Shown here piece by piece: positions 1,649-41,434 of a stretch of DNA of 64,000 nucleotides (the stretch's first letter is position 1; every line of letters starts with the position of its first letter). The stretch lies in contig DATCTN010000012.1 of NCBI GenBank assembly GCA_036567965.1, positions 62,001-126,000 on the forward strand, written 5' to 3'. Origin of the DNA: Candidatus Kryptoniota bacterium (lineage in GTDB: Bacteria > Bacteroidota > Ignavibacteria > Kryptoniales > JAKASW01). Under the pieces are notes generated by a model. It had not been told where the DNA came from. It saw only the letters and a list, made by a program, of their open reading frames with translations, and did not search any database. A program made the translations under genes and the position numbers.

Positions 1649-3348
1649 GCAAAATGGAAAACGAGAAGAATCAGGAATCGCAGAAAACTGAATCGCCGGA
1701 GAGAAGGAATTTCATCCGCGACATAATCGATGAAGATCTGAAGAGCGGAAAGTACAAGAAGGTCCACACCCGTTTTCCACCGGAACCGAACGGATATCTT
1801 CATATAGGTCATGCGAAATCGATTTGTCTCAACTTCGGCACTGCGAAGGATTATGACGGCCGGTGCAATCTGCGCTACGACGACACCAACCCGACAAAAG
1901 AGGAAGTTGAATATGTCGACTCGATCGAAGAAGACGTAAGGTGGTTGGGTTTCAGCTGGGACGACAGAAAATACTATGCGTCGGACTATTTTGACAAATT
2001 GTATGACTACGCGGTCGCTCTGATCAAGAAGGGCGTTGCGTACGTCGATGAACTTGACGCCGACCAGATTCGTGAACATAGGGGTACACTTACTCAACCT
2101 GGAAAGGAGAGTCCATATCGCAACAGGAGCATTGAAGAGAACCTGAATCTCTTCGAGCGTATGCGAAAAGGAGAATTTCCGGACGGCTCGAAAACGCTCC
2201 GGGCTAAAATTGACATGTCGTCGCCTAACATAAATATGCGGGATCCTGTTATGTACAGGATACTTCATGCAACACATCACCGGACCGGAGACAAGTGGTG
2301 CATTTACCCGATGTACGATTGGGCCCACGGACAATCGGATTCGATTGAAGGGATCACGCATTCTATCTGCACGCTTGAATTTGAGGACCACCGACCCCTT
2401 TACAATTGGTTTGTGGAACAGCTCGGGATACATCACCCGAGACAAATTGAGTTTGCCCGACTGAATCTCACTTACACAGTGATGAGCAAAAGGAAATTGC
2501 TGCAGCTTGTGCAGGATGGGAATGTGAGCGGCTGGAACGATCCGCGGATGCCGACGCTTTCAGGTTTGAGAAGGCGAGGATATACTCCCGAGGCGATCCG
2601 AATGTTTGCCGATCGTATCGGAGTTTCGAAAGCCGACAGCATCATCGACGTGTCGGTTCTTGAGGATTGCCTGAGAGCAGATTTAAATAAACGAGCTAAG
2701 AGAGTAATGGCAGTCCTTCATCCTCTAAAACTTGTAATCGATAATTATCCGGATAAGCATGTGGAGGAGCTGGAAGCGGTAAATAATCCTGAAGATCAAT
2801 CGATGGGGACACGCAAGATTCCGTTCTCGAAAATCTTATACATCGAACAGGATGATTTTCGGGAAAATCCTCCGAAGAAATATTTCAGGTTGTCACCCGG
2901 AGCGGAGGTCAGACTTCGTTACGCGTATATAATTAAATGTACGAATTTCGTGAAGGATCCGACGACGGGGGTCATAACGGAAGTTCATTGCACTTATGAT
3001 CCCGAAACGAAGAGCGGTTCACCGGCAAGCCAGAGAAAAGTGAAAGGGACAATCCACTGGGTCTCTGCCCAACATGCGGTTGACGGGGAAGCGAGGGTGT
3101 ACGACAGGCTGTTTAGCGTTGAAGATCCAGCGGGTGAGAATTGGAAATCATTCATAAACCCGAACTCATTAGAAATCGTGAGTAACTGCAAGCTTGAGCC
3201 GGGGCTCTCAACTGCAAAGCCTCAGGACAGATTTCAATTTGAGAGGCTTGGCTACTACTGCGTCGACGACGACTCGAAACCGGGAAGACTCATATTCAAT
3301 AGGACAGTGACTCTCCGCGATACTTGGGCGAAGATTCAAAAGTCATGA
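1645..3348 (+). CDS. glnS: Glutaminyl-tRNA synthetase
   Basis: Class I synthetase charging tRNA-Gln directly, rather than by the GatCAB transamidation route. The protein is 567 residues, close to the E. coli enzyme. HIGH is at residues 53-56 after the [12 protein letters not shown] signature, and the KMSKS-type motif VMSKR is at residues 279-283. The C-terminal half has the two beta-barrel anticodon-binding regions expected of GlnRS. The start may be the GTG at 1645, which overlaps the gltX stop, or the ATG at 1654, which would remove three residues. The leading 35 residues are hydrophilic and variable. It is the last gene of the gltX run; about 235 non-coding bases follow. Confidence 0.96.
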
Positions 3349-35837: not shown

Positions 35838-36068
35838 TTATTGAAACATGTTGTTAATTGCGTCCGTGATGTCGTTGTGGGCCTTAAGTTGTCTCAAGTG
35901 CCGCTCTATCTGGAGATAATGCTCGTACTTCTGACTCGCAAGCGAACGGAACAGTCTTTTCGTTTCGTTATCCTCCGAGATTTCAGCGTGATCGTTATAC
36001 TGACGTATTGTCTCCATTTCATTGCTCAAGGCTTTCTCGAGCATCTCGATTCGTGTCTGGGCTTTCAT
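35838..36068 (-). CDS. Small helical protein resembling half of a ferritin-like domain
   Basis: A 76-residue all-helical protein inside the ilv-leu operon. It looks like a two-helix hairpin of the ferritin/rubrerythrin type: [20 protein letters not shown], then [20 protein letters not shown]. In rubrerythrins the second helix has a metal glutamate three residues before the histidine; here that position is Lys, so metal binding is doubtful. Four-base overlap with cimA and 23 bases to leuA put it firmly in the operon. A structural or regulatory partner of the synthases is possible, but the function is unknown. Confidence 0.7.
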
Positions 36069-37675
36069 TTCACTACCTCCGAATGACTTTTGTTGCTTTT
36101 ACTTTTATCGTTATCCTTCATCAGCTTGAAGACAATGGAGTCCACCATAGCCTTCCAGCTGGCTTCTATAATGTTTTCGGAAACTCCCACCGTGTTCCAA
36201 TTCGAATCCTCATCCGTTGTTTCAATCAAGACTCTCACTTTCGCGCTTGTACCCTCGTTACCGTCTACCACGCGCACCTTGTAGTCTGACAGTTTCGTCT
36301 CCTGGAGTTGTGGATAAAACTGTAAGAGTGCCTTCCGGAGCGCGTTGTCGAGGGCGTTCACCGGTCCGTTTCCCTCCGCCGCAGTGTGCTCTATCTTGTC
36401 GCCGACCCGCAGCTTTATGACGGCTTCTGTGTGAGTCACGCCGGCATTCGCCTTCTTTTCGGTGATGATCCGGAGTGCTTCGAGTTCAAATGGAATCTCG
36501 AGCTCGCCCACGTCTCTTCTCATCAGGATCGCTAGGGACGCGTCGGCGTCTTCGAAAACGTATCCTTCATTCTCGAGAGCCTTCAGCTCGTTTACAATTG
36601 CAGTTGCTTGACCGTTGCTCCCCGGAATACCTACACCAAGCTCCTGAGCTTTATAAAGCACGTTGCTCTTTCCGGATAGGTCACTCACAAGTACCCTCCT
36701 CGAGTTTCCCACCACACCCGGCTCGATGTGCTCGTACGTCCGCGCAGATTTCATGACTGCACTTACATGGACTCCACCCTTGTGAGCGAAAGCGCTCTGG
36801 CCGACGTATGGAAGATTCTTCCGCGGCTGAAGATTTGCCACTTCATTGACGTACCTCGACAACTCGGTCAGTTTCTTCAGCCTTTCCTTCGAAAGAACCT
36901 CGCGGCCCATTTTCAACTGTAGATTCGGGATTATGGAGCAGAGGTTTGCGTTCCCGCATCGCTCGCCGAATCCGTTGATCGTGCCCTGGACCTGGACACA
37001 TCCGGCCTTTATTGCCGCGAGAGAATTTGCTACGGCAAGTTCAGAATCGTTGTGTGCATGAATTCCCAGGGAAATCTTTACCGTGCTTGCCGCAGTTTCA
37101 GTTATCCTGGCTACGTCATCAGGCATGGTTCCGCCGTTGGTGTCACACAGGACGATGAAATCGGCACCGCCGGATTCGGCGGCGCGAATAGTCGTTAGAG
37201 CATACTCGGGATTCGATTTATACCCGTCGAAGAAATGCTCAGCGTCGTATACGACTTCCTTGTGCCTGCTCTTGAGATACTTTACGGTGTCGTGAATGAT
37301 CTCGAGGTTGCGCTCTTCGGTTGTTCCGAGCGCTTCCTTGACGTGCATATCCCATGACTTGCCAAAAATCGTAACGACCGGCGTCTCTGCCCTCAGGAGC
37401 TGGTTCACGTTCTCATCGGCTTCCGGAGTCGAGCCGGCGCGGCATGTGCTCCCGAACGCCGCAAGCTTCGCGTGATGAAGCTTGATCGACTTCATCCGCT
37501 CGAAGAACTCCATATCTTTCGGGTTCGATCCGGGCCAGCCGCCTTCAATGAAATCGACTCCGAACGAGTCCAGATGCTGAGCGATCTTGACCTTGTCCTC
37601 CGCACTGAAGGAGATCTCCTCGCCCTGGGTTCCGTCCCTGAGCGTTGTGTCGTATATGTATATCTTGTCGTTCAT
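36065..37675 (-). CDS. cimA: (R)-citramalate synthase
   Basis: Condenses acetyl-CoA with pyruvate to citramalate, the entry to threonine-independent isoleucine synthesis. From ATG 37675 (AGAGGA 6 bases upstream) the protein has 536 residues; the open frame extends further upstream to 37822 but into the ilvC gene. The LeuA-like barrel starts YDTTLRDGTQGEEISFS and has HAHNDSELAVANS and GFGERCGNANLC; TQGE in place of EQSPG is a hallmark that separates CimA from LeuA. A C-terminal LeuA dimer domain follows and may bind isoleucine. Its place between ilvC and leuA fits the role. Confidence 0.93.
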   Translation of the reverse strand: MNDKIYIYDTTLRDGTQGEEISFSAEDKVKIAQHLDSFGVDFIEGGWPGSNPKDMEFFERMKSIKLHHAKLAAFGSTCRAGSTPEADENVNQLLRAETPVVTIFGKSWDMHVKEALGTTEERNLEIIHDTVKYLKSRHKEVVYDAEHFFDGYKSNPEYALTTIRAAESGGADFIVLCDTNGGTMPDDVARITETAASTVKISLGIHAHNDSELAVANSLAAIKAGCVQVQGTINGFGERCGNANLCSIIPNLQLKMGREVLSKERLKKLTELSRYVNEVANLQPRKNLPYVGQSAFAHKGGVHVSAVMKSARTYEHIEPGVVGNSRRVLVSDLSGKSNVLYKAQELGVGIPGSNGQATAIVNELKALENEGYVFEDADASLAILMRRDVGELEIPFELEALRIITEKKANAGVTHTEAVIKLRVGDKIEHTAAEGNGPVNALDNALRKALLQFYPQLQETKLSDYKVRVVDGNEGTSAKVRVLIETTDEDSNWNTVGVSENIIEASWKAMVDSIVFKLMKDNDKSKSNKSHSEVVK

Positions 37676-37695
37676 GTTTATCCTCTCGGACGTTG

Positions 37696-38781
<1,086 letters not shown>

Positions 38782-38809: not shown

Positions 38810-39301
38810 CTAAACCTCACCCTCGAATTCTCGCTTCAACGCGACGCGGCCGGTCCGTGCGATTTCTTTGATGCCGAACGGTTCCAGCATTTTTATCATT
38901 GCTTCCACTTTCTTCTCGCTCCCGGTGGCCTCTATTGTGATTGACCGCTGACTTATGTCAATGATTTTGGATCGGAAGATTTCCGAAATTTGCATCAGCT
39001 CGGAACGGGTGGTTTTGTTCGCTGAGACTTTAATCAGGATCAGCTCACGCTCCATGAAGCTGTCGTAAGTGAGATCCACAACTTTCGTAACGTCGATGAG
39101 TTTGTTCAACTGTTTAATGATCTGTTCGATAATGTCGTCGTCGCCTTTCGAGACTATCGTGACACGCGCGGCTGAATCATCTTCGCTTGTTCCGACCGAA
39201 ATACTGTCGATGTTGTATCCGCGTGCGCTGAACAAGCCCACGATCCTGTTCAACGCGCCGAATTTGTTTTCAACAAGTACGGATATGGTATGTTTCTTCA
39301 C
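38810..39301 (-). CDS. ilvN: Acetolactate synthase small (regulatory) subunit
   Basis: Regulatory subunit of acetohydroxyacid synthase, 163 residues. The N-terminal ACT domain (ISVLVENKFGALNRIVGLFS, RGYNIDSISVG) binds valine in characterised homologues. A second ACT-like domain follows after about residue 78. The gene overlaps ilvB by four bases, matching the one-to-one assembly of the two subunits. Confidence 0.95.
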   Translation of the reverse strand: MKKHTISVLVENKFGALNRIVGLFSARGYNIDSISVGTSEDDSAARVTIVSKGDDDIIEQIIKQLNKLIDVTKVVDLTYDSFMERELILIKVSANKTTRSELMQISEIFRSKIIDISQRSITIEATGSEKKVEAMIKMLEPFGIKEIARTGRVALKREFEGEV

Positions 39302-41031
39302 TTCACGGTCTCCATATGGGAATGTAATTTCTTGAGTTCTTCGACGCTCTTCGGATAATCCATTATCTGGGCGACCGTTCCTCCGCTCGGGATCATCGGG
39401 AAGACATTGTCTTCGCTTGTCGTCCTAAAATCTATCAGTACCGGCCTGTCGTTTATCTTCATCGATTCTTCGAGGATCGGGGCAACTTCGGCGGGTTTGT
39501 CAGTAACGAACCCGGCGGCTCCGAACGCTTCCGCGAGTTTCGCGAAATCCGGATTGTTCCCGAGCGAAACCTGGCTGTATCGCTTTTTGTAAAACATGTC
39601 CTGCCATTGCCTCACCATTCCGAGAAAACCGTTGTTCAGGATCACGATCTTTATCGGGAGCTTGTGACCAACGGCCGTCGCCAGCTCCTGGATGTTCATC
39701 TGAATTCCTCCGTCCCCGTTTATGCTGAAGACGGGTCTGTCTTTTACTCCGAACGCCGCACCTATGGAAGCAGGGAAGGAGAACCCCATCGTGCCCAGGC
39801 CGCCTGACGTAATGTTCGATCTCGGGTTCTTGAACCTGTAGAACTGTGCCGTCCACATCTGGTTCTGTCCGACATCTGAAGTCACTACCGCTTCGCCATG
39901 GGTCACTTCATAGATCTTTTCAATTACATACTGTGCCCGAATCCTATCGCCGTCTTCATACCTTAGCGGATGTTCATTCTTCCACGTACGTATCTGTTCG
40001 AGCCACTCCTTAGTGTCAAGCGGCTTCACCAGAGGAATCAACCTCTCGAGCACATGGCGGACATCGCCGACGATCGGCACATCGACCTTGACGTTCTTGC
40101 TAATCGCCGATGGGTCGATATCGATGTGAACTTTCCTGGATTTCGGAGAGAAGGACGCAGGATTGCCGGTGACGCGGTCATCGAATCTGGAACCGATCGC
40201 CACGAGACAATCGCATTGGTCGACGGCGATATTCGAGTACCATGTTCCGTGCATACCGAGCATTCCCATCGAGAGTTCGTCTTCGCCTGGGAATGCTCCG
40301 AGTCCCATCAGCGTCATGGTAACCGGCGCGTTCAGTTTCTTCGCGAGATTAACAATTTCCTTGGAGGCGTTCGAAGCAATGGCGCCCCCACCGACATACA
40401 GGACCGGTTTTTTCGATGCGTTAATGATCTCAACCGCCTTGTTTATTTGCCCCATGTGCCCGAAGTAGAACGGGTGGTAACCTCTCAACTTAACTTCTTT
40501 AGGATACGAAAATGCCGTTCGTGACGCCATCACGTCTTTCGGCATGTCGACAACAACGGGACCCGGTCTGCCGGTCGCAGCAATATGGAACGCGGCCCGG
40601 ATCGTCCATGCAAGTTCACGAACGTCCTTCACCAGGAAATTATGTTTCGTGATAGATCTTGTTATCCCGATTATATCGGCTTCCTGGAACGCATCGTTGC
40701 CAATCAAATGAGTCGCGACCTGGCCGGTGAACACAACGATCGGTACGGAATCCATATACGCGTCGGCAATCCCTGTCACCGTGTTCGTGGCGCCGGGGCC
40801 CGACGTTACCACAACTACTCCCACTTTGCCGGTAGCCTTCGCATATCCCTCGGCCGCATGTACTGCTCCCTGTTCATGTCTTGTCAAAATGTGCTTGATG
40901 TCAGACATGTCGTGCATTGCATCGTAGACACCGATCACGGCGCCTCCCGGATATCCGAAAATGTATTCGACCTTTTCCTCCATCAAGGCTTTTACAAAAA
41001 TCTCGGCGCCTGTAATTTCGTTCGTGCTCAT
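39298..41031 (-). CDS. ilvB: Acetolactate synthase large (catalytic) subunit
   Basis: Thiamine diphosphate enzyme that makes acetolactate from pyruvate. The protein is 577 residues, with the three domains in order: PYR domain (FGYPGGAVIGVYD, the catalytic Glu in RHEQGAVHAAEGYA), the central FAD-binding domain, and the PP domain with the ThDP motif INGDGGIQMNIQELATAV. It is the first structural gene of the operon, starting about 197 bases after the leader peptide stop codon. Confidence 0.96.
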   Translation of the reverse strand: MSTNEITGAEIFVKALMEEKVEYIFGYPGGAVIGVYDAMHDMSDIKHILTRHEQGAVHAAEGYAKATGKVGVVVVTSGPGATNTVTGIADAYMDSVPIVVFTGQVATHLIGNDAFQEADIIGITRSITKHNFLVKDVRELAWTIRAAFHIAATGRPGPVVVDMPKDVMASRTAFSYPKEVKLRGYHPFYFGHMGQINKAVEIINASKKPVLYVGGGAIASNASKEIVNLAKKLNAPVTMTLMGLGAFPGEDELSMGMLGMHGTWYSNIAVDQCDCLVAIGSRFDDRVTGNPASFSPKSRKVHIDIDPSAISKNVKVDVPIVGDVRHVLERLIPLVKPLDTKEWLEQIRTWKNEHPLRYEDGDRIRAQYVIEKIYEVTHGEAVVTSDVGQNQMWTAQFYRFKNPRSNITSGGLGTMGFSFPASIGAAFGVKDRPVFSINGDGGIQMNIQELATAVGHKLPIKIVILNNGFLGMVRQWQDMFYKKRYSQVSLGNNPDFAKLAEAFGAAGFVTDKPAEVAPILEESMKINDRPVLIDFRTTSEDNVFPMIPSGGTVAQIMDYPKSVEELKKLHSHMETVK

Positions 41032-41126
41032 ATTTCATGTCTCCGTTTCTTCTATAGGTTGTCTGATTCGGTCACATGTCCACCCGCTTCAGTCTTACAG
41101 CTTTTTAAATGAACAAATCCAAAGAC

Positions 41127-41258
41127 CTCAATACGCGCCCGGCACAGTACTGAGCTTCAGGTTATTCCCGCTTCGTCGATTTTGGATTTTAGTTCAGGTT
41201 TGCTTCTGGGGAATAACCTTCGGCTATTTAGCTAATAATGCCGAGTAGGATATTCCCC
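41127..41258 (-). promoter_or_regulatory. Candidate ilv attenuator with mutually exclusive hairpins
   Basis: Between the Ile/Leu-rich leader peptide and ilvB the transcript can fold in two ways. Segment A (41251-41258, GGGGAAUA, still inside the leader reading frame) pairs perfectly with part of segment B (41208-41215). Segment B as AGGUUAUUCCC (41209-41219) also pairs over 11 perfect bases with segment C (41159-41169). The A:B and B:C stems cannot coexist. A third hairpin, CUCAGUAC with GUAUUGAG, follows at 41127-41154 with one G-U pair. A ribosome stalled at the Ile/Leu codons would block A and favour B:C. No strong U-tract follows the third hairpin, so whether it controls termination or ilvB translation is open. 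Confidence 0.65.
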
Positions 41259-41392
41259 TCGCTAAGGAGGAGGAGAATAAGGATGGAAATAATGGAAATG
41301 AGGCCACGAAGATAAGAACCGACAACACTTTCGGACAGCGGGTAAGCCGTTCCCGCTACTAATGACTCATATGTAGTGCTATTGGTTATCAT
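41228..41392 (-). CDS. ilv leader peptide rich in Ile and Leu
   Basis: A 54-codon frame starting at ATG 41392 and stopping at 41228-41230, upstream of ilvB. Residues 31-43 read LISIISILILLLL, 11 of 13 being branched-chain residues, and NILLGIIS ends the peptide. In all, 23 of 54 residues are Ile, Leu or Val. This is the hallmark of leader peptides whose translation senses charged tRNA in ilv and leu attenuators. AAGGA lies just upstream. The frame overlaps segment A of the alternative hairpins. The peptide itself probably has no function once made. Confidence 0.75.
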   Translation of the reverse strand: MITNSTTYESLVAGTAYPLSESVVGSYLRGLISIISILILLLLSEGNILLGIIS

Positions 41393-41405: not shown

Positions 41406-41434
41406 AGTATAAGAAATGGTGTAGCCGTTGTCAA
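41406..41434 (-). promoter_or_regulatory. Sigma-70 promoter of the branched-chain operon
   Basis: On the minus strand, TTGACA (41429-41434) and TATACT (41406-41411) are separated by exactly 17 bases. Transcription should begin near 41399-41400, only about 7 bases before the leader peptide ATG, with AAGGA at the very 5' end. The spacing and near-consensus boxes make this the clearest promoter in the window. Confidence 0.7.

Follow-up and report, generated by a model that had tools for sequence, protein, structure and literature searches.

In Proteobacteria, ilv operons are known to be controlled through leader peptides, and T-boxes regulate ilv genes in other phyla. The enteric ilv, leu, his and trp attenuators have a leader peptide enriched in the amino acids that the operon makes, biased control codons, and RNA segments that pair exclusively as 1:2 or 2:3. 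Ilv attenuators of the leader-peptide kind are also documented in Corynebacterium (PMC10272879, PMC11857589), in Listeria, as Rli60 (PMC5864092), and in the ilv-leu leader of S. aureus (PMC5794164). In the Corynebacterium ilvBNC leader and ilvB-II motif, an I/L/V leader ORF of 15–17 codons at or near the transcript start, upstream of ilvBNC, is combined with alternative hairpins, one stem having a U stretch behind it (PMC10272879, PMC11857589). Rli60 and the S. aureus leader encode peptides sensing branched-chain amino acids (BCAAs) upstream of an ilvD operon, and Rli60 uses a terminator hairpin (PMC5864092, PMC5794164). Mycobacterial cys leader ORFs carry control codons without an obvious terminator; Rho or Shine–Dalgarno (SD) pairing has been proposed for these cys leaders and the actinobacterial LEU element, which concern other genes and amino acids (PMC1262725). 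For Bacteroides thetaiotaomicron, only small ORFs that recall leader peptides, and that await validation, are described (PMC7366714). Our full-text searches returned no report of ilv leader-peptide attenuation in Bacteroidota, and an earlier prediction may exist.

Here we analyze a leader in a 64,000-nt stretch of a Candidatus Kryptoniota genome (the window), for which a sequence-only reading had proposed a translation-sensing ilv attenuator outside Proteobacteria. Comparative evidence from sequence supports that interpretation, and we put the probability that the leader is a ribosome-mediated attenuator of the ilvBNC-cimA operon at roughly 0.8. The proposal holds for this lineage but not as a novelty, given the precedents in Corynebacterium, Listeria and S. 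aureus: ilv attenuators outside Proteobacteria are already known and not new on that count alone. What is new is the Bacteroidota setting, the wide conservation, a long-range helix termed 0:D, and a genus without a hairpin-plus-U-tract terminator.

Results

A leader ORF precedes the ilvBNC-cimA operon

The leader region lies on the minus strand between ilvB and porX (type IX secretion response regulator, NF052313; 41633-43204, plus strand), which is divergent from the ilv operon. The 54-codon Ile/Leu-rich leader described earlier upstream of ilv genes was recovered as an ORF containing LISIISILILLLL (Table 1). Its ATG is 14 nt past the −10 hexamer, and the 5′ UTR should therefore be very short. 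Across the genus alignment, TTGACA recurs at equal spacing from a TAT hexamer. About 196 nt separate the leader ORF from ilvB. The products of ilvB, ilvN, ilvC and cimA synthesize the same amino acids that the leader codons would sense. In a census of 6576 short ORFs (12–100 codons) from 338 kb of the same genome, the leader was the sole ORF with a run of at least 11 Ile, Leu or Val among 13 residues.

On the plus strand, the Leu codon run (41220-41320) reads AAGGAGGAGG and then a short ATG ORF; this AAGGAGG...ATG mini-ORF is probably a mirror of the Leu codons. A candidate His leader in the same genome was rejected, as the one match lay in another frame inside an apparent clpB.

Table 1 Features of the ilv leader and operon, by position in the window.
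Feature	Position	Strand	Remarks
Promoter match, sigma-70-type, TTGACA-17-TATACT	41434..41406	-	11/12 consensus matches; called strong
Leader peptide ORF	41392..41228	-	54 codons + stop; kept in 12 genus genomes
Leader peptide product		-	MITNSTTYESLVAGTAYPLSESVVGSYLRGLISIISILILLLLSEGNILLGIIS, then stop; 54 codons; ORF translation
Control codons LISIISILILLLL	41264..41302	-	11 of 13 residues Ile/Leu/Val
Element 0 (GUGGCCUCA)	41299..41307	-	Start of control codons; can pair with D
Element A (GGGGAAUAUCC)	41248..41258	-	Inside leader ORF, near its end; pairs with B
Element B (AGGUUAUUCCCC)	41208..41219	-	Shortly past leader stop; pairs with A or C
B-C interval	41171..41207	-	A-rich, C > G; G about 9% in genus
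Element C (GGGAAUAACCU)	41159..41169	-	11-base pairing with B; starts 38 nt past B
C-D region	41122..41164	-	Hairpin CUCAGUAC/GUAUUGAG and element D
Element D (UGAGGUC)	41124-41130	-	Can pair with 0
Last hairpin before ilvB	41063..41092	-	Without U-tract; z −1.5
ilvB Shine–Dalgarno CGGAGAC	41039..41045	-	Core GGAGA kept throughout genus
ilvB, acetolactate synthase large subunit	39298..41031	-	TIGR00118, E 1.8e-247
ilvN, acetolactate synthase small subunit	38810..39301	-	TIGR00119, E 8.2e-62
ilvC, ketol-acid reductoisomerase	37696..38688	-	TIGR00465, E 1.4e-129
cimA, citramalate synthase (isoleucine branch)	36065..37822	-	TIGR00977, E 1.1e-232

Two stems compete for the segment behind the stop codon

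Element B has two partners. In A:B, GGGGAAUAUCC pairs with GGUUAUUCCCC (41208-41218); in B:C, AGGUUAUUCCC pairs with GGGAAUAACCU through 11 perfect pairs. Because both use B, they are mutually exclusive, as had been claimed, and folding against shuffled sequences agrees with the pairing: taken alone, the A:B segment reaches −24.7 kcal/mol (z −5.3), a value matched by none of 200 shuffles, and the B:C segment reaches −15.7 kcal/mol (z −3.2), matched by 2 of 200. The leader thus has exclusive stems, one of which overlaps the leader ORF. Unlike in the enteric attenuators, A falls within the final part of the ORF, B is past the stop codon, and there is an additional conserved long-range helix, 0:D. 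In several relatives, D can alternatively pair with the ACCU end of C. Where one further hairpin had been noticed downstream, we found two, both weaker: that of the C-D region (z −1.8) and the last before ilvB. At the latter position, hairpins of differing sequence are readable by eye in relatives.

The leader is conserved within the genus

A covariance model of the leader found a single copy in each of 12 of the 13 genomes of the genus; the thirteenth, 84% complete, is also without ilvB of the same type. The public records in which the leader core occurs are metagenome assemblies of Candidatus Kryptoniota or Bacteroidetes. In the sister (thermophilic) family of the order the model matched in none of seven genomes, and ilvB there stands behind a short-chain-dehydrogenase-like frame (two loci, read by eye). 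No I/L/V leader was seen at ilvD of the Kryptoniota genus in the three genomes read.

The sequence-only reading would have been refuted by orthologous leaders that had lost the Ile/Leu run or the base pairing; both are kept in 12 of 12 locus-bearing genomes. Differences within the Ile/Leu run number 200, 22 and 226 at codon positions 1, 2 and 3. So few changes at the second position, the one that defines Ile, Leu and Val, mean that these residues interchange while their class stays. The run and the C-terminal codons are retained among the genus leaders, as are, to a high degree, the last 25 residues of the peptide. One leader (L011) has a single base deleted right behind the stop codon, and thus beyond the reading frame. 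This coding signature marks a leader ORF with clustered codons for the operon product. An (S/T/P)TY motif near residues 6-8 (41350-41392, minus strand) occurs in all 12 genomes, in an otherwise variable N-terminus.

Inside the genus A:B is without variation, and its compensatory changes come solely from other families. The 0:D helix reads GGCCUC:GAGGYC in 10 of 12 genomes, and its flanks show changes (for example, UAAGCCUC:GAGGCUUA and UUGGCCUC:GAGGCCAA). In a broad-window test of genus 0:D the pyrimidine tract swamped any signal; in a narrow element test, which came second, 75 of 80 cells were paired in the 10 genomes, a count equaled by 30 of 5000 shuffles. Two leaders, L010 and L012, are without D and have a second C-like insert (GGGAAUGGUCC / GGGGAAUGACCC) between C and ilvB, which might also pair with B.

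The same layout recurs across the class

Six more families of the class (f3, f4, f5, f9, f12 and f16; 51 leaders) have I/L/V leader ORFs, 96–193 nt upstream of ilvD or ilvB. All 46 ilvD genes read in f3, f4, f12 and f16 have one, the ORF end having been placed by hand in two (L092 and L115); so do, in f9, the four ilvB genes and, in f5, a single ilvD. Three f5/f18 loci were unreadable and stand outside these counts. The peptide sequence varies between families, and what is shared is the I/L/V enrichment directly upstream of ilvD or ilvB.

A B:C stem could be drawn in the 62 tabulated leaders, in two of them after the ORF was reset; in L008, L010 and L012 another segment scores best as partner. 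The layout, too, is common to the class, with 0 at the first control codons and D between C and the gene. We scored pairing in 38 leaders of f4, f12 and f16, with slid and off-target windows as the yardstick. When partners were swapped between leaders, the cognate partner was better for A:B (1 of 5000), B:C (0 of 5000) and 0:D (0 of 5000). Fixed windows gave z −4.6 for A:B and −7.5 for B:C, most control windows staying within 2.2, and one off-target control pair (0 with the SD region) likewise stood out at z −3.7. In shuffle tests that preserve composition and ignore relatedness, so that exact figures are optimistic, the pair count was 93.9% for B:C (0 of 2000 shuffles), 94.7% for A:B (8 of 2000) and 76.2% for 0:D (0 of 2000). 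Two-sided changes occur in 4 of 10 pairs of B:C (for example, C-G to U-A), 2 of 6 of A:B (G-C to A-U) and 8 of 10 of 0:D. The covariation that the sequence-only reading had suggested looking for in relatives thus recurs across the class, in the same layout.

Two features were seen beside these leaders. In genome G084, leader L089 of f4 (2740-3050, minus strand) consists of tandem Ile-rich leader peptides, MKNTIINIIIIIIVIIG and MYKTNSHIIISIIIIVIIGIIDG, each ending in a stop codon and followed by a canonical terminator with a U-tract, upstream of ilvE and ilvD. SAM riboswitches lie near the ilvD leaders of two f4 relatives (L119, 933-1043, minus strand; L127, 585-687, plus strand).

Codon choice argues for a regulatory leader

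Among f4, f12 and f16 leaders, CTA makes up 44% of Leu codons and TTG does not occur; the corresponding shares in the genes of one f4 genome are 4% and 25%. In E. coli, CUA should be the sensitive control codon, and UUG and UUA the insensitive ones, an expectation drawn from theory and from mutants of the Salmonella leu attenuator (PMC1183508). The leaders of the Kryptoniota genus shift to CTC (0.55 versus 0.30) and ATT (0.75 versus 0.31), and part of this shift may serve RNA pairing.

A strongly hydrophobic product, with good conservation of its last 25 residues among the genus genomes, would also suit a small membrane protein with its own function, the stems being unrelated to it or regulating something else. 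We regard this as highly improbable: between families only the I/L/V enrichment persists, always before ilvD or ilvB; the changes at codon positions 1 and 3 and the biased synonymous codons (CTA, ATT) point to the codons; and A overlaps the ORF. Still harder to credit is a ligand- or tRNA-binding RNA, such as a T-box or ppGpp riboswitch, or a protein-binding leader. The ppGpp class does regulate ilv genes in other phyla (PMC10272879), but the window region has no Rfam match even at E up to 5, in a release that may or may not contain the ilvB-II and ilvB-OMG motifs. The relatives' leaders likewise lack an Rfam match, the two SAM riboswitches being the only ones nearby, and no T-box core or conserved aptamer was matched in the window region or in those leaders. 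Such an RNA would, moreover, leave the conserved Ile, Leu and Val codons unexplained. Comparison instead supports, at the level of sequence, a ribosome-mediated attenuator with a translated ORF, codons under selection, and the two stems.

Proposed switch and output stage

In the attenuator that we propose, a ribosome would load on the leader ORF very close to where the mRNA begins. With charged tRNA ample, it would pass the Ile and Leu codons, reach the stop codon and depart; A:B could then form, leaving C unpaired and expression low. With charged Ile or Leu tRNA scarce, it would stall at the last Leu codons, or at Ile and Leu codons in or past A, masking A so that B:C forms and expression rises. 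From the geometry and known attenuators we infer both that stalling selects between A:B and B:C and that shortage raises expression.

The output stage differs from that of the enteric attenuators, in that the genus has no U-tract terminator hairpin. The earlier remark that no U-tract is visible was borne out: no hairpin followed by a T run was detected before ilvB in the window, and none of the 12 genus leaders has a U-tract behind D or any hairpin. Its caution over whether termination or ilvB translation is the output was therefore well placed. A classical attenuator has an intrinsic terminator before the first gene, which is missing in the genus and present in some relatives in the class.

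A non-canonical intrinsic terminator, in which the same sensor lets the C-D hairpin or the long-range 0:D helix halt RNA polymerase, appears doubtful. The folding energies of the genus C-D regions range from −5.5 to −20 kcal/mol, and in several f4 and f12 relatives 6–8 U directly follow D, so that 0:D plus the U-tract would resemble a terminator; L089 has its canonical terminators behind tandem Ile leader peptides. Against it stand the genus leaders described above and many f4, f12 and f16 leaders that are likewise without a U-tract. In a small census at convergent gene ends, made with a laxer hairpin rule, U-tract hairpins were not enriched in the same genome (8 of 56 versus 5 of 44 controls), and the same script found them enriched in E. 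coli (13 of 44 versus 4 of 36); a strict rule gave 1 of 38 versus 1 of 38.

Control of translation start by the same sensor, with pairing near the SD differing between the states, is unlikely. In one variant the Leu run UUCUCCUCCUCC would pair with the SD GGAGA, following the LEU element, whose run of Leu codons binds the SD of leuA (PMC1262725); in the other, a D:E hairpin beside the SD would act, like that of some f4 and f16 leaders. GGAGA and UCUCC are both retained in the genus leaders and could pair, but such complementarity is expected of Leu codons and any SD, and predicted SD accessibility is uncoupled from A: blocking A shifts it by a mean of just 0.03 in the genus model, where no output stage is visible. 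The f16 relatives and part of those in f4 have an SD-abutting hairpin (for example, UCUGAA...UUCAGA), and in 4 of 4 f16 leaders the SD is predicted to become less accessible once A is blocked; that sign, however, is opposite to expectation, and D:E gives just a weak signal in the cognate test (z −1.9). For relatives in the class, U-tracts past D, the SD-abutting hairpin and the L089 terminators appear possible as other outputs.

For the genus, the most likely output is premature termination without a U-tract. That Rho brings it about falls a little short of even odds. Rho is encoded in the same genome, and the B-C interval is, by its composition, a possible Rho entry site: it is G-poor and, with A:B formed, would lie open, which fits Rho-dependent termination. 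Otherwise, an unrecognized terminator or control of translation start would provide the output.

Discussion

By its working the leader is an attenuator, and it departs from the classical transcriptional kind in its terminator. It shares the peptide enriched in product amino acids, the exclusive stems and the biased control codons with the enteric attenuators. With Corynebacterium it shares the place of its I/L/V ORF and the alternative hairpins, and it differs in its 54 codons and in lacking both a U-tract and an Rfam match; Rli60 and the S. aureus leader belong to another phylum and are other elements. Our broadest reading, which we hold tentatively and at slightly under an even chance, is that the outer 0:D helix encloses the A:B/B:C switch in an attenuator type found across this class of Bacteroidota, acting in the genus without an intrinsic terminator, through Rho or translation start.

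Attenuation by ribosomes stalled for amino acids is documented for Proteobacteria, Actinobacteria and Firmicutes. A layout shared over seven families would make attenuation an old and general control of BCAA synthesis in this branch of the Bacteroidota, and it would allow attenuation to be tested where U-tract terminators are seemingly little used.
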